A stretch of 64,000 bases of DNA from Thermovibrio ammonificans HB-1. Its GTDB lineage: Bacteria; Aquificota; Aquificia; Desulfurobacteriales; Desulfurobacteriaceae. The stretch is from positions 452,418 through 516,417 of the forward strand of contig NC_014926.1 in the NCBI RefSeq assembly GCF_000185805.1, read 5' to 3'. Below are positions 6,295-53,008 of this stretch, piece by piece. Within the stretch, counting starts at the first letter, position 1; every line of letters begins with the position of its first letter. The notes beneath the pieces were generated by a model. That model was given only the letters and a program-made list of their open reading frames with translations, did not search any database and was not told where the DNA came from. Both the position numbers and the translations under genes were made by a program.

Positions 6295-7017
6295 TTAGCG
6301 GTGCAACTGCTTAAGCAGGCGGTTTACTATCCCCTCTACTGTGTACTCCCGAGGCGGCTCAAGGGGTTTGAACCCGGCCTTCTCTATGGCCTTTTGGGTA
6401 ACGTGGCCTATAGGCAGAAGCTTAACCCCCTTAAGGAGTTCTTCTCTTCCCGTTACGGAGAGGAAGGCCTTAAAGTTGGAAGGGCTTGTAAAGGCTGCGT
6501 AGTCCACCTTTTTCTCGAAGAACCTTTCCAGCTCTTCCTTAACTTCCCGGCGGGGAAGGGTTTCGTAAACGACCGCTTCGAGTAGCTCTGCCCCCTGTGC
6601 CTCTAAGAAATCCTGGACCACGCTTCTTGCCTTCTTGGGCCTTACTATAAGGACTTTTTTCCCTTTTACGCTCAGTTCCTTTAGAAGCTCTACTACCCCT
6701 TCGCCGCTGAAGTTCTCGGGAACAAGGGGAGAGAAGCCGAGCTCCTCTAAGGCTTTTGCCGTTGCAGAGCCTACGGCAACTACCGTAACTCCCTCAAGTT
6801 CCCGGGGGTCAACTCTTGTGAAAAAGTGTTTTACGCCGTTTTTGCTTGAGAAAACGGCAATATCTGGTGAAAAGGCGGTAACTTCCTCTGGTTTAAACTC
6901 AAGGGGAACGGTTTTTATCAGGGGAGTGGCGAGGAACTCCACTCCCTCGCTGCTGAGCCTTTCGGCAAGGTGGGGCGGAAGCTCCTTAGAGATGAAAAGG
7001 CGCGCTTTTACTGGCAT
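6295..7017 (-). CDS. hemD: uroporphyrinogen-III synthase
   Basis: A 240-residue protein of the low-identity HemD family. It cyclises hydroxymethylbilane with inversion of ring D to uroporphyrinogen III. Visible family landmarks are ATPLIKTVP, AVFSSKNGVKHFF, VVAVGSATAKALEELGF and, in the second lobe, VDYAAFTSPSNFKAF and PIGHVTQKAIEKAGF. Its start overlaps hemC by 10 nt and it ends the hemA-hemC-hemD block, which supports the call. Confidence 0.9.
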   Translation of the reverse strand: MPVKARLFISKELPPHLAERLSSEGVEFLATPLIKTVPLEFKPEEVTAFSPDIAVFSSKNGVKHFFTRVDPRELEGVTVVAVGSATAKALEELGFSPLVPENFSGEGVVELLKELSVKGKKVLIVRPKKARSVVQDFLEAQGAELLEAVVYETLPRREVKEELERFFEKKVDYAAFTSPSNFKAFLSVTGREELLKGVKLLPIGHVTQKAIEKAGFKPLEPPREYTVEGIVNRLLKQLHR

Positions 7018-7943
7018 TTCAGAAGCTCTTCCAGTATCGTTTTACCGCCGGCAGAGAGCAGTCTCTCTGCAACGGCCACCCCTATGGAGTCTGCCTCCCT
7101 CAGGTCTTTAAACCTGAAAACCCCCTCCTCTTTGTGGTAAAACCTGCCGTTGAGGTCGGAGATAAAGGCCCTTACAAGGATTCTGTCCTCGTTAACAACT
7201 GCGTAGCAGCCCAGAGGAACCTGACATCCTCCCTCAACCGTCCTCAAAAAGGCCCTCTCCACCGTTGCGGCAACTTCAGACTCGTAAGAGTTAACGGCTT
7301 CCCTCACTATCCTCTCAACCTCGCTGTCTCCTTCCCTGCCTTCTATTCCCAGTATGCCCTGACACACCGAGGGAATCATCCTCTCGGGTGAGAGGATTTC
7401 GTCTATCTCCTCCTCCCAGCCCAGCCTTTTAACTCCTGCGGCTGCAAGGATTATTGCGTCATACTGACCCTCTTTGAGCTTCCTTATCCGTGTATCCACG
7501 TTGCCCCTTAGGTCTTTAATCTGGAGGTCGGGCCTTAAAATCCTCAGCTGGGCCTTTCTCCTCAAGGAGCTGGTTCCTACAACGGCCCCTTCCGGAAGGG
7601 TCTCAAGGGTGTACCTGCCGCAGGAGAGAAGTGCGTCTCTGGGGTCTTCCCTGTCGGAGAAGGCAATGAGCTTCAACCCTTTGGGGAGCTTACTCGGAAC
7701 GTCCTTAAGGCTGTGAACCGCAATGTCCACTTCTCCCCTGAGCATCGCCTCTTCAATCTCTTTGGTAAAGAGCCCCTTATCTCCGATTTTTGCCAGAGGA
7801 ACGTCCAGAATCTTATCCCCCTTCGTTGTTATCTTTACAAGCTCAACTTCAACGTCGGGGAACTTCTTCTCTATCTGAGCCTTTACCCACTCAGACTGCC
7901 ACAGGGCCAGCTTACTCTTCCTCGTGCCTATCCTTATCTTCAT
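7008..7943 (-). CDS. hemC: porphobilinogen deaminase (hydroxymethylbilane synthase)
   Basis: A 311-residue enzyme that links four porphobilinogens into hydroxymethylbilane. The N-terminus KIRIGTRKSKLALWQ and motif DIAVHSLKDVP are typical. The cysteine in EGGCQVPLGCYA (about residue 240) is the dipyrromethane cofactor attachment site. It is 3 nt from hemA upstream and overlaps hemD by 10 nt, so the three are probably one mRNA. Confidence 0.97.
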   Translation of the reverse strand: MKIRIGTRKSKLALWQSEWVKAQIEKKFPDVEVELVKITTKGDKILDVPLAKIGDKGLFTKEIEEAMLRGEVDIAVHSLKDVPSKLPKGLKLIAFSDREDPRDALLSCGRYTLETLPEGAVVGTSSLRRKAQLRILRPDLQIKDLRGNVDTRIRKLKEGQYDAIILAAAGVKRLGWEEEIDEILSPERMIPSVCQGILGIEGREGDSEVERIVREAVNSYESEVAATVERAFLRTVEGGCQVPLGCYAVVNEDRILVRAFISDLNGRFYHKEEGVFRFKDLREADSIGVAVAERLLSAGGKTILEELLKCQ

Positions 7944-7946
7944 TCC

Positions 7947-9218
7947 CTACTCCTTGCTCAGTCCGAAAATCTCCCTGAATATCTGAACAACCTGGCTTGT
8001 GCTCTCCTCAACGGCCTTCTTCTTCACGTTGGTAATCGGCTGGTGGAGGAGCTTGTTTATGATTATCCTCGTTATATTGTCGACTTCCGCCTCCTGCTCC
8101 GGCGTCAGGCCAAGCTTGGGAAGCCTCTTCTCTAAAACCTCCTTCCTTATGGCCTCGGCCTTCTCTTTAAGCTCGGCTATAAGCGGGGCAACCTCAAGCT
8201 CCCTCAACCACTTTATGAAACGCTGAACGTACCCTTCAATAATCTCCTTGGCTACCTCCGCCTCCCTGAGCCTCTCTTTAATGTTTGCCTCTACAACGTG
8301 CTGCAGGTCGTCTATGTCGTAAAGGTAGAGGCCTTCGTGGTCGTTCAGGGCCGGGTCTATGTCCCTTGGGACGGCTATATCTATGAGGAACATCGGTCTG
8401 TCGGGCCTTGCCTTAAGGGCCGGGAGAACGTTTTTGGGAGTAAGCACGTATCCCGGGGCTCCCGTTGAGCTGATTACTATGTCGGCGAGCTTCAGAACCG
8501 TTTCAAGCTCTGTAAGGGGAAAGGCCTTGCCCCCGAACTCCTCTGCCAGCTTTTGGGCCTTCTCGAGGGTTCTGTTAACAACGAACACCTCCGAGGCACC
8601 GTTGGAGATGAGGTGTTTAACCGCAAGCTCTGCCATCTCGCCGGCGCCTATTATGGCAACCTTTTTGCCGTTTAAATCTCCGAATATCTTCTTGGCGAGC
8701 TCAACGGCGGCAAAACTTATCGAAACGGCGTTCCTTGAGATTCCCGTCTCGGTCCTTACCCTCTTCGAGACCTTCAGGGCCGTTTCGCAGAACCTACACA
8801 GAACCGTGCCTACGGTTCCCAGCTCTTTTGCTGTGTAGAAGGCGTCTTTAAACTGGCCTACTATCTGGGGCTCGCCGACAATCATGGAATCGAGGCTGGA
8901 AGCAACGTAGAACCCGTGCCTTACGGCGTCTTGGTCGCTTTTGCGGTAGAAGAACTTTGTTATCTCCTCTACCGAAGCCCCTTTATGGGCAACGAGGAAC
9001 TCTATCACCCCTTTAAAAGGGGTCTGTGAGCGGGTTGTGAAGTATATCTCCACCCTGTTGCAGGTTGATAGTATGAAACACTCGTCAACGTCGGGAAGGG
9101 CGTTGAGCCTCAGAAGGGCGTTTTCGAGTTCCTCCCCCTTAAACGAGAACTTCTCCCTTACGCTAACGGGAGCCGTTTTGTGACTCACCCCCAGACAGCA
9201 CAGCGTCAGCTCTCCCAT
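7947..9218 (-). CDS. hemA: glutamyl-tRNA reductase
   Basis: A 423-residue enzyme that reduces Glu-tRNA to glutamate-1-semialdehyde, the first step of the C5 tetrapyrrole route. The catalytic cysteine lies in ILSTCNRVEIY (about residue 51). The NADPH-binding domain starts with KKVAIIGAGEMAELAVKHL near residue 185, and a long C-terminal dimerisation helix follows. Two nucleotides separate it from the HemX/CcsA-like gene upstream, an association also seen in Bacillus hemAX. Confidence 0.97.
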   Translation of the reverse strand: MGELTLCCLGVSHKTAPVSVREKFSFKGEELENALLRLNALPDVDECFILSTCNRVEIYFTTRSQTPFKGVIEFLVAHKGASVEEITKFFYRKSDQDAVRHGFYVASSLDSMIVGEPQIVGQFKDAFYTAKELGTVGTVLCRFCETALKVSKRVRTETGISRNAVSISFAAVELAKKIFGDLNGKKVAIIGAGEMAELAVKHLISNGASEVFVVNRTLEKAQKLAEEFGGKAFPLTELETVLKLADIVISSTGAPGYVLTPKNVLPALKARPDRPMFLIDIAVPRDIDPALNDHEGLYLYDIDDLQHVVEANIKERLREAEVAKEIIEGYVQRFIKWLRELEVAPLIAELKEKAEAIRKEVLEKRLPKLGLTPEQEAEVDNITRIIINKLLHQPITNVKKKAVEESTSQVVQIFREIFGLSKE

Positions 9219-9220
9219 GG

Positions 9221-10039
9221 TTACCCCTTAAACGAGTGGATATCTTTAGAAGATAATAAATTTACTCCGATAAAGTTTAACATTATTACAGATAATCCTG
9301 CCAACGAGAGGTAGCAGAGCCTTTTGCCCTTCCAGTTTCCGTAGAGGTACAGGTGGATTATCCCCGCGTATACGAACCACGATATCAGCGTTGCAACCTG
9401 CTTAGGGTGCCAGCTCCAGTAGGTACCGAACAGCCTCTCCGACCAAACGGCGCCTGCAAACATCGAAACGGTTATGAACATAAAGCCGACCGTTATTGCG
9501 TGGTAAATTACCGACTCCAGCAGGTTCAGTGAGGGGAGTTTGTGGAAGAAGACCGAGAACTTCTTCTTCTTCAGGTGCCTCTCAAATATCAGGTAGATAA
9601 CCGAGAGCACCGCGGCAAAGATGAACGCACTGTATCCTAAGAAGGCTGTAACTATGTGGACCATTCCAACCGTTCCCACCGGCAGAACCACCTTCGGCGT
9701 GCCCGAGGCGAGCGACGCAACTATCAGCGAAACGGTGGCCCAGGGCATGAGAAAGGCCCCAGACAGGGAGAGCCTGTGTTTTGTTGAGAAGTAGAGGAAC
9801 ACCGTAACTACGCTTATGCCCAAAAGCAGAAAGGCCCCTTTGGGTGTAAACAGGCTTATGGCTCCTGCCTTTACAACGAGGGCGACTACTGCTGCAAGGT
9901 TTGTGAGGAACCCTACCCGTGCCGAGTAGAGCCCGACTACCGCCAACTTCTCCTTCTGGAATATGAGGTACAGCAGGTAGTGAACCGTAGAGATAGCGTA
10001 GAGAACGGTTGTAGAGTAGATGAGAACTTCCGGGCTCAT
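9221..10039 (-). CDS. HemX/CcsA-like cytochrome c assembly membrane protein
   Basis: A 272-residue protein with about eight hydrophobic segments, matching the HemX/CcsA (cytochrome C assembly, PF01578) family. The Trp-rich heme-handling loop reads GTYWSWHPKQVATLISW near residue 210, where most relatives have WSWDPKE: Asp is His and Glu is Gln here. Placement directly upstream of hemA suggests the HemX role (influence on HemA level) as well as possible heme handling for cytochrome c maturation. Which of the two applies cannot be settled from sequence alone. Confidence 0.8.
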   Translation of the reverse strand: MSPEVLIYSTTVLYAISTVHYLLYLIFQKEKLAVVGLYSARVGFLTNLAAVVALVVKAGAISLFTPKGAFLLLGISVVTVFLYFSTKHRLSLSGAFLMPWATVSLIVASLASGTPKVVLPVGTVGMVHIVTAFLGYSAFIFAAVLSVIYLIFERHLKKKKFSVFFHKLPSLNLLESVIYHAITVGFMFITVSMFAGAVWSERLFGTYWSWHPKQVATLISWFVYAGIIHLYLYGNWKGKRLCYLSLAGLSVIMLNFIGVNLLSSKDIHSFKG

Positions 10040-10047
10040 GGCTGAGA

Positions 10048-10797
10048 TTATATCACCGGCTCCGCTTGGAGCTTCAGCTTCTCTTTTGCGTAGTCGGGGT
10101 AGAAGTCCGATATGAGCCTTACCAGCTCCTCCGCCTCTATCTGGCCCGGGGCAACGGGCCTGCCGAAAAAGGTGTAGGTGAGCAGTGAGCCGAAGCTAAA
10201 GCCCACAACTCGGGTGAACTTCCCCGCTTCCCCCATAACCATAAACACCTTGGGCTCCTTAAACTTCGAGAGCGTGCAGCATACCCTCGCCGCGTCTGCG
10301 TGGGTTTTGCCCGCGAAGGCGAGCTTAACTATGTCGGCCTGTTTTTTTAAGCACGCTTTAAACAGCTCCTCTATCTCTTCCTCTCTGGGCGTTTTCTCAA
10401 AGTCGTGGTAGGAGACTATGAGCTTCTTGCCGGCCTCTTTTGTGATTTGCCTCACCGGCTCTGTCAGCTTAGAGCGTAGCTCCACGTCTACGGCGGCGGT
10501 TGCCGGGTGGTTTACCGCAAGTTCAAGGAGCTTGAGCCTCTCCTCCTCGCTCCCTTCAAACCTTCCCCCTTCCCACACCGGCCTTAAGGTTGTTACTGCG
10601 TAAAAGCCGTAGTCTGCAACGGTATCGAGGAACTCCCTTACCGTTTCCGGCTTTACCTCCTCGAGCAGGTCGAGCCTTGCCTCTACAAGGTCTATTCTGA
10701 GCCGCCTGGCCCTTTCAAGGTTCTCTTTGAGGTTTTTACCGTTCAGGGCTACGATTACCCTCGGAATCTCTCCCAGCTTTACGGTTCCCAGCAGCAT
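10048..10797 (-). CDS. aroD: 3-dehydroquinate dehydratase, type I
   Basis: A 249-residue TIM-barrel enzyme of the shikimate pathway. The catalytic His is in VSYHDFEKTP (about residue 130) and the Schiff-base Lys in ADIVKLAFAG (about 155). The C-terminal motif GFSFGSLLTYTFFGRPVAPG followed by QIEAEEL is diagnostic of type I. aroA is 4 kb away on the other strand. The gene lies one nucleotide from DUF190 and 8 nt from the HemX-like gene, inside the long heme/pilus run. Confidence 0.95.
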   Translation of the reverse strand: MLLGTVKLGEIPRVIVALNGKNLKENLERARRLRIDLVEARLDLLEEVKPETVREFLDTVADYGFYAVTTLRPVWEGGRFEGSEEERLKLLELAVNHPATAAVDVELRSKLTEPVRQITKEAGKKLIVSYHDFEKTPREEEIEELFKACLKKQADIVKLAFAGKTHADAARVCCTLSKFKEPKVFMVMGEAGKFTRVVGFSFGSLLTYTFFGRPVAPGQIEAEELVRLISDFYPDYAKEKLKLQAEPVI

Positions 10798-10798
10798 C

Positions 10799-11143
10799 TT
10801 ACTCCCCTTTCCTGTGTCTGTAGGAGATAACCTCTACATCTTCAAGGACAACGAGTCCCTCCTCTATAACCTGGTCGAGCTTCTCAAGGAAGGGTTTTAT
10901 CTTCTCCTCGGAGTCTATTATCTCTATTACCACGGGAAGGTCCTGAGCCAGCCTCCACACGGTAAAGGTTCTCAGCTCCGAGTGGGCTCCTATGCCTGCA
11001 GCCGCCTTGAAAACGGTGGCACCGGCAAGCCCTTCCTCCTTTACCATACGGAGGATATACTCCCACAGCGGTTTACCCTTGAACTTATCGTCGAGGCTTA
11101 TGAAAATCCTCAGCAGCTTCCTCTTTCCCACAAGACCTTTCAT
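10799..11143 (-). CDS. DUF190 family protein (PII-like fold)
   Basis: A 114-residue protein matching the DUF190 family: LLRIFISLDDKFKGKPLWEY, EEGLAGATVFKAAAGIGAHS, LPVVIEIIDSEEKIKPFLEK and a closing LEDVEVISYRH. Relatives adopt a PII-like ferredoxin fold and often sit next to CrcB fluoride channels, but no CrcB is present here. The molecular role is unknown. It overlaps the pilB stop by 1 nt (TGATG), so translation is probably coupled. Confidence 0.85.
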   Translation of the reverse strand: MKGLVGKRKLLRIFISLDDKFKGKPLWEYILRMVKEEGLAGATVFKAAAGIGAHSELRTFTVWRLAQDLPVVIEIIDSEEKIKPFLEKLDQVIEEGLVVLEDVEVISYRHRKGE

Positions 11144-12849
11144 CAGTAGCTCCTCGTTACCCTCAGAACTTCTTCGGGTGTTGTAACGCCCTTGGCAATT
11201 TTAATTTTGCCGATTTCCCTTAGGGTCCTCATTCCGTACTTTTTGGCTATCTCTCTTATTCTGTCTGCGTTTTCTCCCTTTACTATTGCGTCTCTGATTT
11301 CAGGAACGAGCTCCATTACCTCGTAAAGGGCCACCCTGCCTTTGTAGCCGGTGTAGTCACACTTTTCGCACCCCTTGCCCTTGTAGGTTTTTATCTTCTC
11401 TATCTCCTCGGGCGTGAAGCCCACCTCTTCGAGTACCTCTTTAGGGTACTTAAACTCCTCCTTGCAGTAGGGGCAGATTTTCCTCGCAAGCCTCTGGGCG
11501 ATTACGAGAATTACCGAGGATGAAACGAGGAACGGCTCTATTCCCATATCTACGAGCCTTGTTACGGTGCTCGGGGCGTCGTTTGTGTGAAGGGTCGAGA
11601 GAACCAGGTGACCTGTAAGGGCGGCCTCAACTGCAATTTCGGCGGTTTCGGTGTCCCTGATTTCTCCGACCATTATGATGTCTGGGTCTTGCCGGAGAAA
11701 GGCCCTCAGTGCCCTTGCGAACGTGAGGCCTATTTCCGGGTTCACCTGAACCTGGTTTATGCCGTAGAGGTTGTACTCAACCGGGTCCTCTACGGTCATT
11801 ATGTTGACTTCCGGTTTGTTCACCTCGAGGAGCGACGAGTAGAGGGTTGTGGTTTTACCGGAGCCCGTGGGGCCGGTTACTAAAACCATGCCGTAGGGCG
11901 AGTGTATCGCTTTTTTTAGGAGGTTGTACTCCCTCTCTTCAAAGCCCAGCTCCTCTAAGTTCAGCTTCAGGGCCCCTTTGTCCAGTATCCTTAGAACAAC
12001 TTTCTCACCGTAAACGGTGGGAACCGTTGAGACCCTGAAGTCTATGTCTCTGCCCTGGAAGCGGGCCCTCATTCGGCCGTCTTGGGGCAGGCGCTTCTCT
12101 GCTATGTCGAGTCCGCTCAGGACTTTGATTCTCGCCACTACGGCGTCTTTTATGTCGGGCTGGTACTTGGCTACAACGTGGAGGACGCCGTCTATACGGT
12201 AGCGGATTCGAAGCTCCTTCTCAAAGGGCTCTATGTGGATGTCGCTTGCGCCCTTCTTGAGGGCTTCGAGTATAACTGCGTTTACCAGCTTTACAATCGG
12301 GGTTTGTGAGGCGAGGCTCTTCAGGTCGTCCAGCGACAGAACTTGCTGGGATATCTGAACCTCTTCAAGGGTCTCCTCCTTAGAGGAGCTCTCTTTCATT
12401 ATCTCGCTTTTGAGCCTCGAGAAGAACTCCTCCTCGGCCTTTCCGTAAACCTCCTCCAGTTTCTCCTTTATCCTGAAGGGGAGGGCAACGAAAGGCTGTA
12501 TCTTGAAGCCGGTGGTGAACCTTATCCGCTCCCTCGTTTGGACGTCGGAGGGGTCTGCCATTGCAAGCCGGAGAATCGGCCCCCTCTTTTCAAAGGGGAG
12601 TATGAGCTGTTTCTCTGCGGTTACCCTCGGAACGATTTTTACAACGTCCGGCGGGATTTCCACTTTCCTTAGGTCTACGTAGGGAACGCCGAAGAACTCG
12701 GAAAGGAGGGAGAGGAGCTTCTCCTCCGAAACAATCTTCTTCTCTATGAGCTCCTTCTCCCATTCTTTCCCCTGGAGCAGTTGTAGCGGGAGTCCCAACC
12801 TGTCTGCGATAAAGCTTTTAAGCTTGTTTTCATCTGCTCTAACCGGCAT
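11143..12849 (-). CDS. pilB: type IV pilus / type II secretion assembly ATPase PilB/GspE
   Basis: A 568-residue secretion ATPase. An N-terminal T2SSE_N-like domain (about 1-150) precedes the ATPase core with Walker A GPTGSGKTTTLYSSL (about 330), the Asp box, LRQDPDIIMVGEIRDTETAE (Walker B) and the His box LVLSTLHTNDAP. A four-cysteine zinc motif CPYCKEEF...CEKCDYTG is present near 465-500. It powers extension of type IV pili at the inner membrane. A prepilin peptidase is encoded at 38329-39096, but no other pilus structural genes are in view. Confidence 0.92.
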   Translation of the reverse strand: MPVRADENKLKSFIADRLGLPLQLLQGKEWEKELIEKKIVSEEKLLSLLSEFFGVPYVDLRKVEIPPDVVKIVPRVTAEKQLILPFEKRGPILRLAMADPSDVQTRERIRFTTGFKIQPFVALPFRIKEKLEEVYGKAEEEFFSRLKSEIMKESSSKEETLEEVQISQQVLSLDDLKSLASQTPIVKLVNAVILEALKKGASDIHIEPFEKELRIRYRIDGVLHVVAKYQPDIKDAVVARIKVLSGLDIAEKRLPQDGRMRARFQGRDIDFRVSTVPTVYGEKVVLRILDKGALKLNLEELGFEEREYNLLKKAIHSPYGMVLVTGPTGSGKTTTLYSSLLEVNKPEVNIMTVEDPVEYNLYGINQVQVNPEIGLTFARALRAFLRQDPDIIMVGEIRDTETAEIAVEAALTGHLVLSTLHTNDAPSTVTRLVDMGIEPFLVSSSVILVIAQRLARKICPYCKEEFKYPKEVLEEVGFTPEEIEKIKTYKGKGCEKCDYTGYKGRVALYEVMELVPEIRDAIVKGENADRIREIAKKYGMRTLREIGKIKIAKGVTTPEEVLRVTRSY

Positions 12850-12861
12850 CAGATGCTCTCT

Positions 12862-13515
12862 TTACTGGTTGGCCTTTGCAGCCTCGGCCAGTTTGTGCAG
12901 GAGCTCGGCCGGGCTGTCAATCGGGTATTTTATCCTATCCAGAAGCTCGCCGGCTTCAACTCCTTTAATCTTAATACCCTTCAGCCGCTCCTTCAGCTCC
13001 TCTTTCAGCCCTTCATCTACGGGGAAGTCGAGCCCTTTGATGGCCTTCAGAACCAGAACGGGCCACACCAGGTTAACGTCGGGGCAGGTCTCTGCCGTCT
13101 CCATGTGCTTCTTAACGTAGTCTTCGCACACGGAGGCAACAAAGGCAACGTAGTCGTTACCCCTTTTAACTTCCCTGTAGGCGAGTTTTGCAAGCCCTCC
13201 TGCCGTGTGGACCTTTATCTCCTTGCTCTCAAGCTCCCCTTGGAGCTTCTTCATAACCAGCTCCGGGTCGGCAGAGAGCATGTTCCTAACGGTCTGCTTG
13301 GTCAGTCCGAGGAACTCGGCGATTTCGTCTTCGGTTTTCATCGCCTCTTCCCTCAGAACCACTGCATAAGAGGCCTCTATGAGGCTCGGAACCCAGGTGA
13401 GGTTTCTATACTCAAACAGCTTCCTCGGTCCGCCGAGTATCTCAAGGGCCTTCAGGAATACCCTGAGGGCAAGTGCGTCGTAGTCCACCTCCCTCGGCTC
13501 TACCTGGATGACCAT
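12862..13515 (-). CDS. HTH-containing probable regulator
   Basis: A 217-residue soluble protein. A helix-turn-helix is apparent in MKTEDEIAEFLGLTKQTVRN (about residues 62-81), resembling a 'probable regulatory domain' family found in Aquificota and Archaea. The C-terminal half (about 95-217) is helical and of unknown function. A strong ribosome site (GGAGGGAGCG) precedes ATG 13515. It lies 12 nt upstream of pilB and may head the long pilB-aroD-hem transcription unit, so control of those genes is possible but unproven. Confidence 0.55.
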   Translation of the reverse strand: MVIQVEPREVDYDALALRVFLKALEILGGPRKLFEYRNLTWVPSLIEASYAVVLREEAMKTEDEIAEFLGLTKQTVRNMLSADPELVMKKLQGELESKEIKVHTAGGLAKLAYREVKRGNDYVAFVASVCEDYVKKHMETAETCPDVNLVWPVLVLKAIKGLDFPVDEGLKEELKERLKGIKIKGVEAGELLDRIKYPIDSPAELLHKLAEAAKANQ

Positions 13516-13646
13516 CGCTCCCTCCTTAAAAAAGCTTTTTACATTACTTGCTACTTTAATTATTAACCTTACGTAAAAGGTAAAGCAAGCGCTTCCAGAT
13601 TAAGTTATTATTTAAACTTCAGGAAACGGCAAAGAGAGAGCCTGCC

Positions 13647-14810
13647 ATGCTGGGAAGAAGGGAAGCTTTGAAGCTCCTGCTGACATCGCCGCTCCTCCTT
13701 GTAGGTGAGGCGGTTGCAAGGAGCAGACCGGTAATACTGAGGGTTCGCTACTCTGCAACCAGGGAGAGAACCCGTATAGTCCTTGATTGCACCGGAAAAG
13801 TAGAGAGGAGCTGGATAAAGGAGCACTTCTCCGGCAATACTCTCTGGCTAACCTTTAAGGGAGTGGGAGCTTCCCGCCGCATGGCCCGTCTTTTAAGGCG
13901 CAGCCCCCTTGTGAGGGAAGTTGAGGTCATTCCGGTTACCCACACGAAGGCCCGTGTAAAAGTGGTAATGCGGGAGCCCCACAAGTTCAAAATATTCGGC
14001 CTGAGGCCCTGCGGAAGGCGGCCCTTCAGGGTAGTTATAGACGTTTTCCCCGACTACCTCCCCATAGAGTGTGCCGTTAGGAAGGTGCCCCAGCGGATAG
14101 TGGTTATAGACCCGGGCCACGGCGGAAAGGACCCCGGGGCCGTTTGGCCGATTGGCTCAAAGCACCCAAGGATAGAGGAGAAGTGGATAACTCTTGCCAT
14201 AGCCCTGAAGGTTAGGAAGTACTTGAGCCGCAACCCCAACATAAAGGTTGTTATGACCAGAACGAGGGACGTTTACGTCCCCCTTCTAAAGCGGGCCGAA
14301 ATTGCCGCAAAGGTGTGTGCCGACGCCTTCGTCAGCATCCACGCCGACTCTATGCCCAACTACCCCAACTGGAGCGGCGTTACCGTGTTTAAGGCCTCTC
14401 CTGCGCTCTTTGCAAAGGCCCAACAGATGGCCAGGAAGGTTGCCAAGAACGTTAGGATGTGTAGTGATACCATGTGTTGGAGCATAAGCCCCCTCCTTAT
14501 AAACCTCTCCACAACCGTTACTTTCGCCGAGAGTGCAAAACTCGCAAGGGCGATAGTGGAGAGCCTGAAGGCCCACGTTAACGACGAGCTCATAAACGGC
14601 ATAAAGGACATGCGCCGCAACATAGTTGTCCTTAAAACGCCGGGCAGACCGGCGGTTCTTATAGAGTCTGGCTTCATCACCAACCCCCTTGACAGGAAGC
14701 GCCTTGTTGAGCCCTGGTACCAAGACGAAATTGCAAGGGGTATAGCCCGAGGAATAGAGCACTACCTGGACTCTCTCAACGCCGTTGCATACCTTGAGAG
14801 GAGGCGTTAA
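13647..14810 (+). CDS. N-acetylmuramoyl-L-alanine amidase (AmiC type) with AMIN domain
   Basis: A 387-residue exported cell-wall amidase. The N-terminus MLGRREALKLLLTSPLLLVG resembles a Tat signal (RR at 4-5). An AMIN-like domain (about 30-145) is followed by Amidase_3: VVIDPGHGGKDPGA with the zinc His, the zinc Glu in PRIEEKWITLA, AFVSIHADS and the catalytic Glu in LIESGFITNP. It splits the amide between MurNAc and the stem peptide during daughter-cell separation. The stop overlaps the aroA start (TAATG). Confidence 0.92.
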   Translation: MLGRREALKLLLTSPLLLVGEAVARSRPVILRVRYSATRERTRIVLDCTGKVERSWIKEHFSGNTLWLTFKGVGASRRMARLLRRSPLVREVEVIPVTHTKARVKVVMREPHKFKIFGLRPCGRRPFRVVIDVFPDYLPIECAVRKVPQRIVVIDPGHGGKDPGAVWPIGSKHPRIEEKWITLAIALKVRKYLSRNPNIKVVMTRTRDVYVPLLKRAEIAAKVCADAFVSIHADSMPNYPNWSGVTVFKASPALFAKAQQMARKVAKNVRMCSDTMCWSISPLLINLSTTVTFAESAKLARAIVESLKAHVNDELINGIKDMRRNIVVLKTPGRPAVLIESGFITNPLDRKRLVEPWYQDEIARGIARGIEHYLDSLNAVAYLERRR

Positions 14811-16102
14811 TGGTTACGCTGCACTTTAAGGGCAAAAAGCTTAAAGGGGAGCTTCGGGTCCCTTCCGATAAATCCATCTCCCACCGCTGCATTATGCTCG
14901 GCAGCCTCAACAGGGGAGAGGTTGTTGTAAAGCACTTCCTCCGCTCTGAAGACTGCCTGAACACCCTGAAAGCCTTTGTGGAGCTCGGCGCCGACGTAAC
15001 AGATACCGGCACCGAACTTATCATTAAGGGAAAGGGTAAAAGGAGCCTTAAAGAGCCCTTTAACGTTATAGACCTCGGGAACTCCGGAACTTCCATAAGG
15101 CTGATGGCCGGAATACTTGCCGGCCAGCCTTTCTACTCCGTTCTCACAGGCGACAGGTACCTCAGGCGCAGGCCTATGGACAGGGTTGCCGTTCCCTTGA
15201 GGATGATGGGGGCCCAAATCTACGGAAGGGAAGGGGGTAAGTACCCTCCCCTTACGATTATCGGCAAGGAGAAGTTGAGAGGGATATCCTACAAGAGCCC
15301 CAAGGCTTCTGCCCAGGTGAAGTCCTCTATACTCCTTGCGGGCCTCTTTACCGACGAAACCGTTGAGGTAACCGAGCCTGCCAAGAGCCGCGACCACACC
15401 GAGAGGATGCTCAGGGCTTTCGGCGTAGACGTTGAAGAAAACGGCCTTACCGTTAGGCTCGGTAAGAACCGAGAGCTTGCTGCCGACCTCGAGATAGACG
15501 TTCCCGCCGATATCTCCTCTGCGGCCTTCTTCATAGTGGGAGCCCTTATAACCCCCGGCTCTGAGGTGCTCCTTAAGAGCGTAATCCTCAACCCCACCAG
15601 AACCGGAATTCTCGACGTTGCAAGCCGAATGGGGGCAGATATTACCGTTTTAAACAGGCGCTCCGTTTCCGGTGAAGAGGTGGGAGACCTGCTGGTAAGG
15701 TTCACCCCCCACCTTAAGGCCACCGTGATAGAGGGTGAGGAGATTCCCCGCCTTATAGACGAGCTTCCCGTTATAGCCCTCCTTGCGACTCAGGCCGAGG
15801 GGGAGACTGTAATAAGAGACGCCGCAGAGCTGAGGGTGAAAGAGAGCGACCGGATAAAGAGCACCGTTGAGAACTTAAACGCCATCGGCGCTTGCGTTGA
15901 GGAGCTCCCCGACGGCATGGTGATAAGGGGTAAAACGCCCTTAAAGGGCGGCACCGTCTCCTCCTTCGGAGACCACCGGATAGCCATGACCCTTGCGGTT
16001 GCCTCCTTAATTACCGAAGAGCCGGTTGTTATAGATGAAGTAGACTCCGTTTCCACCTCCTACCCGTCTTTCTTCGACGACTTATCCCGTCTGCTTTCGT
16101 AG
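14810..16102 (+). CDS. aroA: 3-phosphoshikimate 1-carboxyvinyltransferase (EPSP synthase)
   Basis: A 430-residue enzyme joining PEP to shikimate-3-phosphate. Visible motifs are PSDKSISHRCIMLGSL (about 18-33), LGNSGTSIRLMAG (about 90), LRRRPMDRVAVPLRMMGA and the C-terminal ESDRIKSTVENL and FGDHRIAMTLA. It is translationally coupled to the amidase gene. The 3' end overlaps the convergent coiled-coil gene by 43 nt. Confidence 0.97.
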   Translation: MVTLHFKGKKLKGELRVPSDKSISHRCIMLGSLNRGEVVVKHFLRSEDCLNTLKAFVELGADVTDTGTELIIKGKGKRSLKEPFNVIDLGNSGTSIRLMAGILAGQPFYSVLTGDRYLRRRPMDRVAVPLRMMGAQIYGREGGKYPPLTIIGKEKLRGISYKSPKASAQVKSSILLAGLFTDETVEVTEPAKSRDHTERMLRAFGVDVEENGLTVRLGKNRELAADLEIDVPADISSAAFFIVGALITPGSEVLLKSVILNPTRTGILDVASRMGADITVLNRRSVSGEEVGDLLVRFTPHLKATVIEGEEIPRLIDELPVIALLATQAEGETVIRDAAELRVKESDRIKSTVENLNAIGACVEELPDGMVIRGKTPLKGGTVSSFGDHRIAMTLAVASLITEEPVVIDEVDSVSTSYPSFFDDLSRLLS

Positions 16103-16320
16103 TTCCGGAGCCCTGCGGGCTCCAGCATCTTCAGTGCGGCCTCTACTTTCTCTATTACCTTTTTGAGCTTCTGCTGATTTGACAGAAGCTCCCTCTCTAT
16201 CTCCTTAACCTGCTGCTCTATTCTCCGCAGCCTCGACTCGCACCTCTGGATGCCGTCGAGGGCGCTCCTGCCGACTCCGTAGTACCTCCTCCCCACTTTG
16301 TACTTCTTCTCCCGCTCCAT
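16060..16320 (-). CDS. small coiled-coil protein, unknown function
   Basis: An 86-residue protein from ATG 16320, which has a G-rich ribosome site (GAGGGGG). A TTG start at 16371 would add 17 residues but lacks a better site. It is mostly one helix with heptad-like spacing (IQRCESRLRRIEQQVKEIER onwards to about residue 70) and a basic tail. No family is recognised. It overlaps the end of aroA by 43 nt tail to tail, so it could be spurious, although codon use and ribosome site look real. Confidence 0.5.
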   Translation of the reverse strand: MEREKKYKVGRRYYGVGRSALDGIQRCESRLRRIEQQVKEIERELLSNQQKLKKVIEKVEAALKMLEPAGLRNYESRRDKSSKKDG

Positions 16321-16371
16321 CCCCGCCCCCTCGGTGGCTACTCTTAAATAGCCCCCCTTTTGCCCCTCCAA

Positions 16372-16527
16372 GAACCAATATAACAGATTTTAAATTTCTA
16401 TCGCAACGGATTATGAATGTTTATTTAATACAAGATTAAAAATTCTAAATTGATACATCAATCAAATGGTTGCCCTATTAGTTAGTATAACCTAAATTTC
16501 TTCTTAGAACCTATTCGGAGGTGCGGT
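16372..16527. other. AT-rich intergenic stretch
   Basis: 156 bp that is much richer in A+T than its flanks, between the coiled-coil gene and the zinc-ribbon gene. It ends in a CGGAGGTG ribosome site for the latter. A TATAAC box at about 16487 could be a -10 element, but no convincing -35 lies 16-18 nt upstream. No structured RNA was recognised. Confidence 0.4.
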
Positions 16528-16791
16528 ATGGAAGCCCTTCCCAAGAGGAAGTTTCAGTGTCTCGACTGCGGCTACGAGTTTGAGGAGCCCTTCGGTAAGC
16601 CCCGCTGGATGGTGAAGTGCCCCAAGTGCGGCAGCGAAAACGTTGTAAGGGCCGACGCTCAGGGCGGTTGGTGCAGGGGCGGCCGCGGCTGGGGTTGGCG
16701 CTTTAGGGGCGGCCAGCCGGAGAGGGGATTCGGCAGAGGAAGAGGCGGCTGCGGAAGGGGTAGAGACTGGGGTTGGGGCTGGAGGGGTTAA
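16528..16791 (+). CDS. zinc-ribbon protein with Gly/Arg/Trp-rich tail
   Basis: An 87-residue protein. Residues 1-43 form a two-knuckle zinc ribbon of the FmdB type: CLDCGYEF (C11, C14) and CPKCGSENVV (C31, C34). Residues 45-87 are almost only Gly, Arg and Trp (GGRGWGWRFRGGQPERGFGR and similar), like an RGG box that binds RNA or drives condensation. Zinc-ribbon heads of this type are common; this tail is not. The ribosome site CGGAGGTG is strong. It ends 4 nt inside the convergent trhP-like gene. Confidence 0.75.
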   Translation: MEALPKRKFQCLDCGYEFEEPFGKPRWMVKCPKCGSENVVRADAQGGWCRGGRGWGWRFRGGQPERGFGRGRGGCGRGRDWGWGWRG

Positions 16792-18020
16792 ACTCCGGCC
16801 CCAACGGGGGCCTCTTCCCTCCGTAGAATGGTTCTCTCCGTAACCGGAACCTCTTTGTCGAACCGGATTTTTGCCCTCTGGTTCGGGTGGGCCTCCTCGG
16901 CCCTTATTATCCGGCCCTTTTTCTCCACTTCTATGGCCGTTACTTTGGCTTTGAAGCTCTCGGCCGTTGGCAGGAATAGCTCAACCTCTTGGCCTACCCG
17001 GATGGGGTTCCTCACCTGCCACACTCCATCTCTATAGATGCCGAGGAACTTGTAGTTCCTTATGTAGGAGCTCGTTTCGTAGTGCTGAAGGGAGCCGTTT
17101 TCCCCTTTGAGGAATCCGGTTGTGTAGGGCCTATGGCTCACCTTCTCGAGCTCTGCCATAAGTTTGGGAAGCTCTCTGTAGAAGGCTTCCCTGTTTTCCG
17201 TCAGAAGGTCTACTGCCCTTCTGTAAACGCTTGTTGTAACTGCAACGTAGTAGGCGCTCTTTACCCTCCCCTCTATCTTAAGGGAATCGACACCCGCCTC
17301 TATTAGCTCCTCGAGCAGCGGGAGTGCGCACAGGTCCTTGGAGTTTAAAATGTAGGTGCCGTGCTGGTCTTCCTCTATCGGCATGAACTCTCCGGGTCTT
17401 GTCTCCTCAACCAGGTAGAACTTCCACCGGCAGCTCTGGGAGCACGCTCCCTTGTTGCTCTCCCTGTAGGAGAGGTAGTTAGACAGCAGACACCTGCCCG
17501 AGTAGGCCATACACATTGCCCCGTGGACGAACACTTCAAGCTCAACGTCTGGAACCCGCTCTTTTATCTCCCTTATCTCTTCTATTGAGAGCTCACGGGC
17601 AAGAACCACCCTGCTGACGCCTGCAGAGCGGTAGAAGTTCACCGCCCTGTAGTTTGTAACGTTGGCCTGTGTGGAAAGGTGGAGCTCAACTTCCGGGGCC
17701 AGCTCCTTTACCGTTGTTATAACGCCCGGGTCGGATACTATGAAGGCGTCGGGTTTGAGCTGCCTTACCTCTTTTACAAACTCCTCTACTGCCGGAAAAT
17801 CGCCGTTCCTGACGAACGCGTTGAGGGTAACGTACACTTTAACGCCCCTTTTGTGGGCGTAGTCTATGGCTTCTGCCATCTCCTCCAGGGTGAAGTTGGC
17901 CGCCTTTGCCCTCAGGTTAAAGAGCTTCCCCCCCAAGTAAACGGCGTCTGCCCCGAAATCTACCGCAAACTTCAGCTTTTCAAGGCTTCCCGCCGGTGCG
18001 AGAACTTCTGGTTTTCCCAT
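16788..18020 (-). CDS. trhP: U32 peptidase family protein, TrhP/YegQ-like tRNA hydroxylation protein
   Basis: A 410-residue protein of the U32 family. It opens with PEVLAPAGSLEKLKFAVDFG and ADAVYLGG, and the signature ELEVFVHGAMCMAYSGRCLL leads to NKGACSQSCRWKFYL; these four cysteines probably hold an Fe-S cluster. A beta-barrel U32 C-terminal domain follows. Family knowledge: TrhP (YegQ) supports prephenate-dependent 5-hydroxyuridine formation at U34 of tRNA; the 'peptidase' name is historical. The exact subfamily (TrhP rather than RlhA or UbiU/V) rests on length and C-terminal domain. Confidence 0.8.
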   Translation of the reverse strand: MGKPEVLAPAGSLEKLKFAVDFGADAVYLGGKLFNLRAKAANFTLEEMAEAIDYAHKRGVKVYVTLNAFVRNGDFPAVEEFVKEVRQLKPDAFIVSDPGVITTVKELAPEVELHLSTQANVTNYRAVNFYRSAGVSRVVLARELSIEEIREIKERVPDVELEVFVHGAMCMAYSGRCLLSNYLSYRESNKGACSQSCRWKFYLVEETRPGEFMPIEEDQHGTYILNSKDLCALPLLEELIEAGVDSLKIEGRVKSAYYVAVTTSVYRRAVDLLTENREAFYRELPKLMAELEKVSHRPYTTGFLKGENGSLQHYETSSYIRNYKFLGIYRDGVWQVRNPIRVGQEVELFLPTAESFKAKVTAIEVEKKGRIIRAEEAHPNQRAKIRFDKEVPVTERTILRREEAPVGAGV

Positions 18021-18065
18021 TTCCTCTCCCGTAAACTGTTGACTCTATTAAAATATGCACCCTTT

Positions 18066-18911
18066 TCAAGGCCGCTCCTCTCTGTTCCCGGCCTTATGGA
18101 AAATTAAAGTTTTGTTCCTCCCCTCTCTTTTCCCCTTTGTTATTTTGATTTGGTAGGGAAGCTCCTTCATGCCGTTTAAAGCGTTAACGGCCTTTTTCAG
18201 CCTTTGGAAAGTTATCTTCTCCTTAAACCACTTGTAGCAGAAGTTCTCATCTAAAATGCCACCCCTTTCTACGTACCCTATGTTGAGAAAGTGGTTGTTG
18301 TTTTGGAAGAAGTAAAACCCCAAAAGTAAGAGTTTGAGGTAGAACCCTTTTACTTTAGAGTCCATAAGGGCGTGAATCGGAACGGAAAAGCTTTCTCCCA
18401 GGCTCTTGTTCAGAAACTCTTCGTTGAGCTTCACAACCAGGGGCGACGTTCTCTCCTTTGGCCAGCAGACTTCGTCTATTAGGGAGTAGGCCGTAGAGAA
18501 GGAGAAGATTTCGTCTCTGAACTTGCTTTGAAGCTCCACCTCAACGTGGACGGAAGTGTTTTTAAGAACTTTTAAAGACTCTTTTAGGGAGCTATAAGAC
18601 TCCCTGGAGCTTCCCCTCCCCAACAACTTAAGGAGCTTCAAGTAGCTTACTCTTACCTCCGGGCTTTCTGTGGTTTGGGCCAGAAACATCAGTGCCAAAA
18701 GGACCTTTGCGTCTCCCCAAAAGGGGACGGGATTGCCCTTTACCGTGATTGTGGTTTTCAGGTTCTTATTTCCGCGGTAGTAGCTGAGGGATATCCTCCC
18801 GCTTTTCTCCCTTTCTCTGCCCGACAGCCAAAAGATGTTGTAGATGAACTGTTTAGACAGGTTCAGCGTGCTGGGCGCCTGCGATGTTTCCTTTAAATCA
18901 TTGATTCTCAT
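18066..18911 (-). CDS. plasmid-type replication initiator (RepA-like) protein
   Basis: A 281-residue protein resembling replication initiator protein A (RPA, PF10134). The winged-helix part has VPFWGDAKVLLALMFLA (about 62-78), YLKLLKLLGRGSSRESYSSL (about 90-109) and KESLKVLKNTSVHVEVE. A second winged helix is plausible around residues 195-260. Ribosome site GGAGAAGG. Plasmid Reps bind origin iterons and repress their own promoter at an inverted repeat; a perfect 13-bp inverted repeat lies 21 bp upstream (18932-18962). The gene is AT-richer than neighbours and divergent from the AAA+ gene, suggesting a plasmid-derived pair. No iterons are obvious. Confidence 0.6.
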   Translation of the reverse strand: MRINDLKETSQAPSTLNLSKQFIYNIFWLSGREREKSGRISLSYYRGNKNLKTTITVKGNPVPFWGDAKVLLALMFLAQTTESPEVRVSYLKLLKLLGRGSSRESYSSLKESLKVLKNTSVHVEVELQSKFRDEIFSFSTAYSLIDEVCWPKERTSPLVVKLNEEFLNKSLGESFSVPIHALMDSKVKGFYLKLLLLGFYFFQNNNHFLNIGYVERGGILDENFCYKWFKEKITFQRLKKAVNALNGMKELPYQIKITKGKREGRNKTLIFHKAGNREERP

Positions 18912-18931
18912 AGCCTTCTCCGAATTTTTGT

Positions 18932-18962
18932 TTTAGATTGCGAATGTATTTCGCAATCTAAA
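18932..18962. promoter_or_regulatory. 13-bp inverted repeat, likely Rep operator
   Basis: TTTAGATTGCGAA (18932-18944), a 5-bp centre TGTAT, then the perfect reverse complement TTCGCAATCTAAA (18950-18962). It is in the AT-rich divergent region between the Rep-like and AAA+ genes. The position just upstream of a Rep gene is typical of an autoregulatory operator. It could also act as an RNA hairpin. Confidence 0.7.
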
Positions 18963-19123
18963 TATATGCTATTTCCTGTTAGTTCAAACTATAACGAGAG
19001 TTTCTCTCTTTCTCCAAATACTTATAGAATTTCCAATAAAGGGTTTAGCGGGAAGGCGGCGAGACTGCCGGCTTCTCCCTGGGGCCACAGATTAAGCTCA
19101 AACCGATTTGAAAGGAGGTGGAA

Positions 19124-20806
19124 ATGGCTTTTAAATTCCTGACTTTAGCTTCAGACATTATATCTGCCGAGATTTCAAAAGAGCTTGTGGGCCAAGATGA
19201 AGGAGTCAAGAAAGTTGTTACGGCCATATGCGAGAACCTGGAGAGTTACCTCTCTGGCAACTCCCGAAAAACGGCCAAGAACAACATCCTCCTGGTGGGG
19301 CCTACAGGCAGCGGTAAAACTGAGCTGGCAAGGAGAATCTCCGAGCTCCTTGACCTCCCCTTCGTTAGAGTCAACATTACCGATTACACCTTAACCGGGT
19401 ACAAGGGTAGGGACCCTCAGAGTATAGTCTTAGAAGACTTTGACCGGGTTCTCCAAAAAGGTGCCTATCGAGCAGCGGAGGTTTTGGAGGAGAAGCGGCG
19501 GAAGTACTGCGGTGCTGTTTACCTGCTTAAAAACTTAAAGGAAGAGCTCCTTAAAAGGGGTAAAGGGAGAGACTCCCTCCTCTTTTACCTAAAGGTGACT
19601 GCTGAGCTCTTTGCCTCTATGCTCTTTTTCGAAAAGGACCGCGTTGTTGAGTTCCTCTTGTCGAAGTACAGTTTTAAAAACCCCAAGCACAGGGATAGGC
19701 TTAAATCGCTTCTTGAGCAGCTTGCCCGTAAATTCGAGGGCATGAAGAAACTTACACCCCTTTTAGATGGGTGTTCCGGCAAGGTTGAGAAAAGGCAGTT
19801 CTCCCATAAACCTTTCGGGATAGTTTTCATAGACGAGATAGACAAAATCCTCATACAGGAATCTGAAAACAGCTTCTACACCTGGCTTCAGAACTTCCTG
19901 CTTACAATGGTTGAAGGGACGGTTGTAACCGGTGAAACGGAAAGAGAGGTTAAGACTATGGACACCTCCCACCTGACCTTCATTTTTGCGGGGGCCTTCT
20001 CCCAGACCTCTCCCGACGACTTTTTCCCCGAATTTAGAGGAAGGTTGAACGTTACCGTTAAGTTCAACGAGTTGGGGCTTGAAGAGCTTGAGCAGATAGC
20101 CCGTTTAAAGGACTTTGCCGGCTTTATGGGGGACCTTTTCGTTAAAGTTGAGCCTGATGCTTACAAGGCCGTTGCCGAAGAGGCCTTCCGCTTAAATAGA
20201 GACTGTTACCTTGGGGCAAGAAGAGTTGATGAGGTTATAAGTAAGGTAAATGCCGCTTTGAGCCGCGAGCTCGCCTTGGGCCGTTTAAGCCTACCGGTGG
20301 TGGTGGACTACAGCTACGTAAAGTGGGCCTGTAGCCTGAAGTTTGAGGGAAGGAGCGAGGCTGCTTTTGTGGAGCTTCCGGTAACCGGAAAGGAGGAACT
20401 ACTGGCCAAAGAGCTGGAAGAGTGTTTAGACAAGGAGCTGGATGGGGAGTTTGATATTGTTGAGAGGGCCGTTTTTAAGTCTCTTCACGCTTCTGAAGTT
20501 CTTGGAAAGATTGAGAGACAAATCAGGGAGGAACTTGAAGAGAATATGGCTCTGAGCATCGGGCTTTTCAACTACTACCTGGAAGCCGTGCGGGTTTTCA
20601 AGGGGAGCAGGTCTGAAGGGTTGGTTCGTTTGGCGAACCTGCTTTTGGAGTTCGGCCCCTGGAACTTGGAGCCCGACTTTGCCCAGTATTTCCTTGAGGA
20701 GGTAGAGAGGGCCGCGGTTAAAGACAGGATTCCCGACGAAGTTATAAAGGCACTGGAGAGCTTACGTGAAAACGACGACCTGGACGATAGGTTGATGCTG
20801 CTTTAA
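19124..20806 (+). CDS. HslU/ClpX-like AAA+ ATPase with extended C-terminus
   Basis: A 560-residue AAA+ protein, starting at ATG 19124 (AGGAGG 19113-19118 fits it; the GTG at 19118 does not). LVGQDEGVKKVV, Walker A GPTGSGKTELAR (59-70) and VNITDYTLTGYKGRDPQS (about 83-100) follow the HslU/ClpX pattern, with GYKG where HslU has GYVG. A roughly 130-residue insert precedes Walker B GIVFIDEIDKI (about 228-238), like the HslU I-domain but unrelated in composition. The sensor/arginine-finger FRGRLNVTVKF and sensor 2 LGARRVDEVISKV follow. About 170 residues beyond the usual end are helical and unknown. No HslV or ClpP is adjacent. Confidence 0.75.
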   Translation: MAFKFLTLASDIISAEISKELVGQDEGVKKVVTAICENLESYLSGNSRKTAKNNILLVGPTGSGKTELARRISELLDLPFVRVNITDYTLTGYKGRDPQSIVLEDFDRVLQKGAYRAAEVLEEKRRKYCGAVYLLKNLKEELLKRGKGRDSLLFYLKVTAELFASMLFFEKDRVVEFLLSKYSFKNPKHRDRLKSLLEQLARKFEGMKKLTPLLDGCSGKVEKRQFSHKPFGIVFIDEIDKILIQESENSFYTWLQNFLLTMVEGTVVTGETEREVKTMDTSHLTFIFAGAFSQTSPDDFFPEFRGRLNVTVKFNELGLEELEQIARLKDFAGFMGDLFVKVEPDAYKAVAEEAFRLNRDCYLGARRVDEVISKVNAALSRELALGRLSLPVVVDYSYVKWACSLKFEGRSEAAFVELPVTGKEELLAKELEECLDKELDGEFDIVERAVFKSLHASEVLGKIERQIREELEENMALSIGLFNYYLEAVRVFKGSRSEGLVRLANLLLEFGPWNLEPDFAQYFLEEVERAAVKDRIPDEVIKALESLRENDDLDDRLMLL

Positions 20807-51685: not shown

Positions 51686-51830
51686 GTCAACTACCCCCGA
51701 CTAAAGTCGGAGGCTTGTAGCTGATGCTACGCAGTGGTAGCACCGCTACATTAGGACGGTTGACAACGCCCCACTGGAGCGGATATACCAGCTCCAGTCC
51801 TGACTTCTCCCCTGTGGAGAGAAGTCAGAT
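51686..51830 (-). ncRNA. TnpB guide RNA (omega-RNA) candidate
   Basis: Overlaps the 3' end of tnpB and continues past it. The minus strand shows repeated small stems with GTAGC/GCTAC arms, then AGCCTCCGACTTTAGTCGGG and GGTAGTTGAC at the element end. By analogy with known TnpB systems, the guide would be the flanking sequence TATTAAACTCCCGCTACAGG (51685-51666). The 5' limit is approximate. Confidence 0.6.
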
Positions 51831-52923
51831 AGTTCTTGACTATGTTCCTGCTGGCGTTAAGGTCAGCATTAAGAGAGAAACCGCAATGCTTACAAACAAA
51901 GTGAGACTGGTCAATTCGATTAGAGCGGGAAATGTATCCGCACCTACTACACTTTTGAGAGGTGTAGCGTGCATCTACGTAGACAACCCTTATTCCCTTA
52001 GCCTGTGCTTTATACTCTATAAACTGCTGAAGCTGTGCAAAGTTCCAGCTGTGTATCCAGCGTCTATTCTGCTTGTTAACCTTAATCCTTTGCCTGATTC
52101 CCTTGAGCTTCTCAAGAACAATTACTCCACCAGCAGGAACGAGGGCAACTATTTCCTTAGCTATTTTGTGGTTAACAGCAGTCCGAAACCGTTTCTCCTT
52201 CTGCGAAAGTTTCTTAAGGTGTCTTTTAGCAGAAGGAGTGCCTTTGGACTGCAGTCTCTTGCGAAGTGCAAAGTATCTTTCAGATACGGTTCTAATGTGT
52301 CCACCGTTAAAGAACCTATTGATTTTTCCGTCGGGAGTGGAGACAACTGCAAGTTTTCGGAGTCCCAAGTCCACTCCAACACAGAAGTCAACAGGTTCTA
52401 CATCTGGAAAGTCTTTCTCAACGGTAATGTTGAGGAAAAACTTTTTGAGCTTTTTGTCATATTTGAGGTTAGTAGAGGTAACCTTCCAGTCCAAATACTG
52501 CTTGAAGTAATCAGGAATTTTTACTTTAAACTTCTGTCTTCCACCGACAGTAGCAAGGGACACTTCTTCTCTGTTGAGCCAAACGGTATAAGAACGCTTA
52601 TCGTAGCGAATAACAGGATTTTTGCTCTCTGGACACCTGCTTTTGAGTCCCTTTTTCTTTCTCTTGATTGCAGATTTGAGACTTTCAGTAGCTACGACTC
52701 TTGCAGAGATTACAAGCTGGGAAGGGAGAGAAGTTTTGTTTCTGACGGTGTAGTAGGTGAGTTTGTGGAGCTGGACTCCGTTCCAAGTTTCGGCTTCCCA
52801 CCCGATTCTGCAAGTGTAGTTGTAAGCGAACTTATACTGTTCAAGCGTTTCAAGGAGTATTTGCTTTTGTTCTTCGGTAGGTTTAAGGACGAGTTTGAGA
52901 GTTCGTTGCAGTTTCATATTCAT
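51751..52923 (-). CDS. tnpB: RNA-guided endonuclease TnpB
   Basis: A 390-residue TnpB (OrfB). The RuvC-like Asp lies in CVGVDLGLRKLAVV (about 185), Glu in GGVIVLEKLKGIRQ (about 275) and Asp in LNADLNASRNIV (about 357), all present. The zinc finger CSRCGYIS...CKHCGFS is intact, and the N-terminal helix-turn-helix MKLQRTLKLVLKPTEEQKQI is typical. So the nuclease looks functional: it would use the omega-RNA to cut DNA matching the flank of the donor site, favouring retention of the element. Start ATG 52923; a second ATG follows two codons later. Confidence 0.92.
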   Translation of the reverse strand: MNMKLQRTLKLVLKPTEEQKQILLETLEQYKFAYNYTCRIGWEAETWNGVQLHKLTYYTVRNKTSLPSQLVISARVVATESLKSAIKRKKKGLKSRCPESKNPVIRYDKRSYTVWLNREEVSLATVGGRQKFKVKIPDYFKQYLDWKVTSTNLKYDKKLKKFFLNITVEKDFPDVEPVDFCVGVDLGLRKLAVVSTPDGKINRFFNGGHIRTVSERYFALRKRLQSKGTPSAKRHLKKLSQKEKRFRTAVNHKIAKEIVALVPAGGVIVLEKLKGIRQRIKVNKQNRRWIHSWNFAQLQQFIEYKAQAKGIRVVYVDARYTSQKCSRCGYISRSNRIDQSHFVCKHCGFSLNADLNASRNIVKNYLTSLHRGEVRTGAGISAPVGRCQPS

Positions 52924-52953
52924 ATACTACTTCGATACCCGCGAAATTTCAAG

Positions 52954-52996
52954 TGCGGTCTCCTCCCTGCTTTGAAAAGCAGGGTTTCCGACCGCA
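52954..52996. repeat. nested inverted repeat at the IS left end / TPR gene leader
   Basis: Outer arms TGCGGTC (52954-52960) and GACCGCA (52990-52996); inner arms CCCTGCTTT (52965-52973) and AAAGCAGGG (52976-52984). Together a long hairpin ending one base before the ribosome site AGGGAGG of the TPR gene. Consistent with the subterminal hairpin of an IS605-type left end. Confidence 0.7.
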
Positions 52997-53008
52997 AGGG
53001 AGGTTTCT

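Follow-up and report, generated by a model that had tools for sequence, protein, structure and literature searches.

The closest described relatives of the locus analysed here are, on the one hand, the double winged-helix replication initiators, such as the RPA proteins, RepE of plasmid F and RctB of Vibrio chromosome 2, and, on the other hand, the AAA+ proteins HslU and ClpX. In plasmid F, dimers of RepE bind to inverted repeats located between the promoter and repE and repress the gene (PMC13028717). ATP-dependent chaperones, ClpX and ClpA among them, activate Rep proteins from the dimeric state (PMC4980987). Homologues of both kinds of protein stand back to back on the chromosome of Thermovibrio ammonificans HB-1, whose genome of 1,759,526 bp comprises a chromosome of 1,682,965 bp and a plasmid of 76,561 bp (PMC3570795). 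The locus lies in a chromosomal stretch of 64,000 nucleotides, called the window throughout, and has the following features:

18911-18066, minus strand: rep, intact ORF of 281 aa, Rep/RPA-type replication initiator homologue with a predicted double winged-helix fold
19118-20806, plus strand: AAA+ ORF, intact, 562 aa from GTG, member of a separate, HslU-like family of AAA+ ATPases
18932-18962, no strand: inverted repeat of 31 bp with 13-bp arms and a 5-bp spacer, proposed autorepression operator
18912-19123, no strand: divergent intergenic region of 212 bp, AT-rich (40.8% GC for 18912-19117)
20330-20806, plus strand: C-terminal extension of the AAA+ protein, without a Pfam match and different from the C-terminal domain that the other family members share

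The AAA+ gene probably starts at the ATG at 19124 rather than at the GTG at 19118, because a GGAGG precedes the ATG; the protein would then have 560 aa. Counted from this ATG, the two divergent and intact reading frames are separated by the 212-bp AT-rich gap with its 13-bp perfect inverted repeat, just as an earlier note on this DNA had described them. The note also placed the pair between the housekeeping genes trhP and hemB. The flanks are indeed ordinary genes, a trhP-like gene of the U32 peptidase family and hemB, but a search of the 1.5 kb upstream of hemB in 19 relatives revealed no trhP in any of them; the two genes are thus not a conserved pair that the locus has split. An empty-site comparison at hemB-trhP was ruled out for the same reason, as the order of the two genes is not kept among relatives. 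The GC content of the locus (47.5%) falls into the lowest 1% of same-size segments within the window. No repeat of at least 8 bp that could represent an att site is common to both edges, and none of the ORFs flanking the locus encodes an integrase, mobilisation, partition or other plasmid function; a mobile origin at this site therefore rests on composition and on the comparison with relatives. The ORF with the lowest GC content of the window (45.2%) spans positions 51724-53160 and encodes 478 aa without a Pfam match.

The 281-aa protein is, by profile and predicted fold, a homologue of the Rep/RPA-type initiators with two winged-helix domains, in agreement with the RepA-like winged-helix protein that the earlier note had recognised. 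The assignment rests on these two lines. Like known members, the protein passes the cut-off of the Pfam family RPA (PF10134; 28.5 bits, E = 1.4e-6, cut-off 27), by a narrow margin, and its AlphaFold (AF2) model, which was built from two sequences and reached a pLDDT of 69 and a pTM of 0.71, shows the double winged-helix fold. Foldseek hits of this model in the PDB at ranks 1-10 are all RctB, RepE54 or Rep initiators (E = 8.5e-7 to 1.6e-3), with RctB domains 2-3 as the best structural matches; the next rank is an unrelated protein with a 40-fold weaker E-value (6.5e-2). A search of the Rep profile against the sequences of solved structures gave no match.

In contrast to RPA initiators, RepE and RctB, the T. 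ammonificans Rep has one detectable homologue among sequenced species. The family occurs in 2/136 Aquificota genomes, and a scan of 84,980 species genomes, from which that of T. ammonificans was possibly left out, returned a match in G002 alone. This relative, from the Desulfurobacteriaceae MAG G002 (JAMOTD01), is 33% identical and scores 20.4 bits against PF10134, below the cut-off. Relatives of Rep were found neither in plasmids (tblastn) nor in viral contigs, and the T. ammonificans plasmid encodes no member of the RPA family. An intact rep reading frame in two species at such a low identity suggests that the gene is still under selection.

The inverted repeat between the two genes, TTTAGATTGCGAA-tgtat-TTCGCAATCTAAA, has its arms at 18932-18944 and 18950-18962, paired at 13/13 positions; it precedes the rep ATG by 20 bp and is 161 bp away from the AAA+ start. 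An arm of 13 bp occurred in 0/3000 dinucleotide shuffles of the intergenic region (largest arm 11), so the palindrome is beyond chance. It is present as a single copy in the T. ammonificans genome (BLAST), and its half-site is absent from the plasmid. A diverged palindrome with 11-bp arms precedes the G002 rep gene by 15 bp (L210), and the two palindromes, read on the rep strand, have the core TAGATT(G/A)CGAAA in common. As in the repE gene of plasmid F, the T. ammonificans repeat would lie between the promoter region and the start of rep. Because RepE dimers repress repE through such repeats, and because a palindrome with the same core occupies the same place before the G002 gene, the element is most likely an autorepression operator of rep, a prediction drawn from sequence and analogy. 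A Rep dimer would bind between promoter and start codon and repress its own transcription.

It is conceivable that Rep controls the divergent AAA+ gene through the same palindrome as well, given that the two genes diverge from a common intergenic region that contains a single palindrome without a second copy in the genome. The distances to the two starts, 20 bp against 161 bp, argue otherwise, and in G002 the palindrome is equally near to rep while the divergent neighbour is unrelated to the ATPase gene. A palindrome next to rep in both genomes points to autoregulation only, and such a dual regulator is judged quite improbable.

Other hallmarks of a replication origin were searched for around rep. 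The T. ammonificans gene differs from those of RPA initiators, RepE and RctB in being chromosomal and in having no iteron-like direct repeats (17.5-21.5 kb scanned) or DnaA boxes (18-21 kb scanned) around it, and a sparsely sampled GC skew gave no clear signal or turning point at the locus. The origin role contemplated in the earlier note thus found no backing. An active second origin of the chromosome at this locus, or a vestige here of a chromid that fused with it, would fit RctB domains 2-3 as top structural matches; in view of the missing repeats and boxes, the featureless skew and the absence of Rep from all relatives but one, this is scarcely credible. Since no origin repeats are in sight, Rep is probably a remnant of a plasmid- or integrative-element-type initiator, or an autoregulated DNA-binding protein, rather than an active initiator of the chromosome. 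The locus suggests a way for an initiator of plasmid type to survive on a chromosome along with its probable autorepression operator, even where no origin can be recognised.

The AAA+ protein resembles HslU both in sequence and in its predicted model, and the earlier note's description as an unusual HslU-like ATPase holds, although it is not HslU itself. Identity as HslU was rejected for three reasons: the score against the NCBIfam hslU profile (140.7 bits) is well under the cut-off of 362.45; the HslV-docking tail (LSRYIL type), present in the true HslUs of Aquificota, is absent from the T. ammonificans ATPase and all members of its family; and the family forms a clade of its own (support 100/100), whose exact placement is uncertain owing to long branches. 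A family profile gives 649 bits for the T. ammonificans protein and 710-865 bits for its seven relatives, and at most 199 bits for every true HslU, ClpX and viral homologue scanned. By these measures the ATPase is a member of a separate HslU-like AAA+ family; elsewhere, the T. ammonificans genome encodes a true HslU and a ClpX.

With HslU and ClpX the ATPase has in common a core comprising Walker A and B motifs, a GY pore loop, an arginine finger and sensor 2, as well as an insertion between Walker A and B. It departs from them in its pore motif, GYKG versus GYVG, and in an extra C-terminal domain. The motifs GPTGxGKT, GYxG, FIDExDK, GRL and RR are invariant in 7 aligned members. Because catalytic and pore motifs are invariant, the protein is likely to form an ATP-driven unfolding or remodelling ring, that is, a Clp/HslU-type unfoldase that would work without docking to HslV. 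HslU-like proteins of jumbo phages are related as well. Their family phrog_4339 is the best PHROG match of the ATPase (2.6e-49), and both have an HslU-like core that carries a large insertion; the jumbo-phage proteins aligned are only 24-28% identical to the ATPase and fall on separate branches of the tree.

The ATPase family was found in 8/136 Aquificota genomes, all of them Desulfurobacteriaceae (8/22 genomes of that family); outside Aquificota, the ATPase was searched for in viral, phage and plasmid collections. In 6/8 carriers, the gene directly upstream of the ATPase gene is a conserved partner of about 430-540 codons; the two carriers without it are T. ammonificans and G006. The partner protein gave nothing significant against Pfam, NCBIfam, PADLOC and PDB sequences, was not found in viral contigs and has no remote homology to Rep (hhalign 0.2%). 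The GC content of the cassette is lower than that of its flanks in the genomes compared with their local surroundings.

An instructive case is the 11.7-kb low-GC island of G021, a member of genus g6 (L040, about 6940-18628), which is inserted between serA and a gene for 350 aa, and the same junction is empty in the sister species G016 (L262) and G008 (L263). Besides partner and ATPase, the island contains genes for proteins of 107 aa and 300 aa, AbiEii-type nucleotidyltransferases and an NgoFVII-type nuclease. The partner gene of G021 is broken into two ORFs. In G006 (L044, 8492-12992), about 0.8 kb separates the ATPase gene from an upstream gene of the PIWI/pAgo family, whose 687-aa product has PprPIWI as its best PADLOC match; a small gene between the two looks ribbon-helix-helix-like by eye. 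The relatives' cassettes resemble those of defence islands, with AbiEii, PIWI and restriction nucleases, in their patchy occurrence, low GC content and variable sites. Such a pattern is that of a mobile cassette, and to judge from its gene neighbourhood the partner-ATPase cassette is probably related to defence. What emerges is a protease-free HslU-like ATPase family, set apart from HslU, that has a conserved unannotated partner and resides in defence-type islands of deep-branching thermophiles.

The T. ammonificans copy differs from such cassettes in lying outside any such island. Its C-terminus is unrelated to the C-terminal domain of five relatives (hhalign probability 0.6%), which is consistent with a lost partnership, and the partner itself would have been lost. 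This reading is weakened by G006, whose ATPase keeps the usual C-terminal domain although the partner is absent there too. A more far-reaching proposal regards ATPase and partner as a previously uncharacterised system by which vent Aquificota would ward off phages (or plasmids), with a protease-free HslU-like ring coupled to interchangeable partners; in T. ammonificans, Rep would have taken the partner's slot and the ATPase could remodel or remove the Rep proteins of invaders. ATPase and partner matched no PADLOC system and gave only weak generic ATPase matches. The proposal as a whole appears decidedly doubtful.

The earlier note had treated rep and the ATPase gene as a pair. As far as current genomes go, this pairing is seen in one genome only, that of T. 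ammonificans. In G002 the two genes occupy the interior of two separate contigs, of 128,902 and 133,172 bp, and the ATPase gene stands beside the usual partner. Both Rep genomes (2/2) carry the ATPase gene, and so the two genes do co-occur, the opposite of what the note had named as evidence against a pair; with the ATPase in 8/22 genomes of the family, such a co-occurrence has a chance of about 0.12 and is weak. A conserved regulator-ATPase pair is not supported, in view of the single case of adjacency, the separate genes of G002 and the link of 6/8 ATPase genes to the other partner.

Initiator and ATPase could nevertheless belong to a cryptic integrated replicon and function together there, in such a way that the Clp-like protein remodels Rep dimers to active monomers, or destroys Rep. 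The initiator would then have a private chaperone, as ClpX serves TrfA and ClpA serves RepA of P1, and the activation of Rep dimers by such chaperones offers a precedent. The retained pore loop, Walker A and B motifs, arginine finger and sensor 2 would suit this task, the genes adjoin, the C-terminal domain differs from that of the partner-carrying relatives, and the ATPase is present in both Rep genomes. Adjacency in 1 genome and the arrangement in G002 weigh against it, as do the six other ATPase genomes that lack Rep and the origin repeats that were not found; we regard this pairing, the main rival reading, as unlikely.

On balance, the fairly probable explanation is an autoregulated Rep stranded on the chromosome beside an ATPase orphaned from a mobile cassette, their co-location being incidental. 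Two horizontally acquired genes of mobile elements would have been brought together once on the T. ammonificans chromosome. The ATPase would stem from a Desulfurobacteriaceae cassette that normally works with its upstream partner in variable low-GC islands of defence type; in T. ammonificans, it would have lost the partner, and it carries a different C-terminal domain. The domesticated plasmid module of the earlier note survives in broad terms as an origin from mobile elements, but not as a single conserved module.

A mobile-element ancestry of the Rep lineage is favoured by the position of the G002 gene, which terminates 3 bp downstream of ssrA, the gene for tmRNA. Genomic islands frequently integrate at the 3' end of this tmRNA gene (PMC3146451). 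The sequence that follows ssrA in G002 differs from that in T. ammonificans and in G001; no att duplication was detected at the G002 ssrA/rep junction in the region examined. Judged by eye, ORFs that follow ssrA in G001 (L238, L267) resemble phage genes (endolysin, DNA adenine methylase), which suggests that, in the genus of G001, the 3' end of ssrA is a hot spot for integration.

One observation on the two G002 loci speaks against a merely incidental co-location. The ATPase gene is beside a zinc-ribbon gene and rep is near a PHP gene, and these two flanking genes are neighbours in G001. Because both loci abut the two sides of one G001 junction, rep and ATPase may once have been at one site in G002, or the site may be a hot spot of rearrangement. 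The G001 junction itself (L231, 8162-9330) contains a decayed stretch of 1.1 kb between the zinc-ribbon and PHP-domain genes, with multi-frame fragments like a decayed IS256-type transposase and what remains of the C-terminal part of a 158-aa gene, the one adjoining rep in G002.

A search of the whole 64-kb window against Rfam at gathering thresholds gave no match, and a single miRNA match in the intergenic region was judged to be a chance hit. The leader of the AAA+ gene contains a long GC-rich hairpin at 19041-19086, GCGGGAAGGCGGCGAGACTGCCGGCTTCTCCC, of which no convincing copy was seen in relatives. A known riboswitch was rejected as its identity, since it has no Rfam match; its fold is only mildly better than that of shuffled sequences (z = -1.7).
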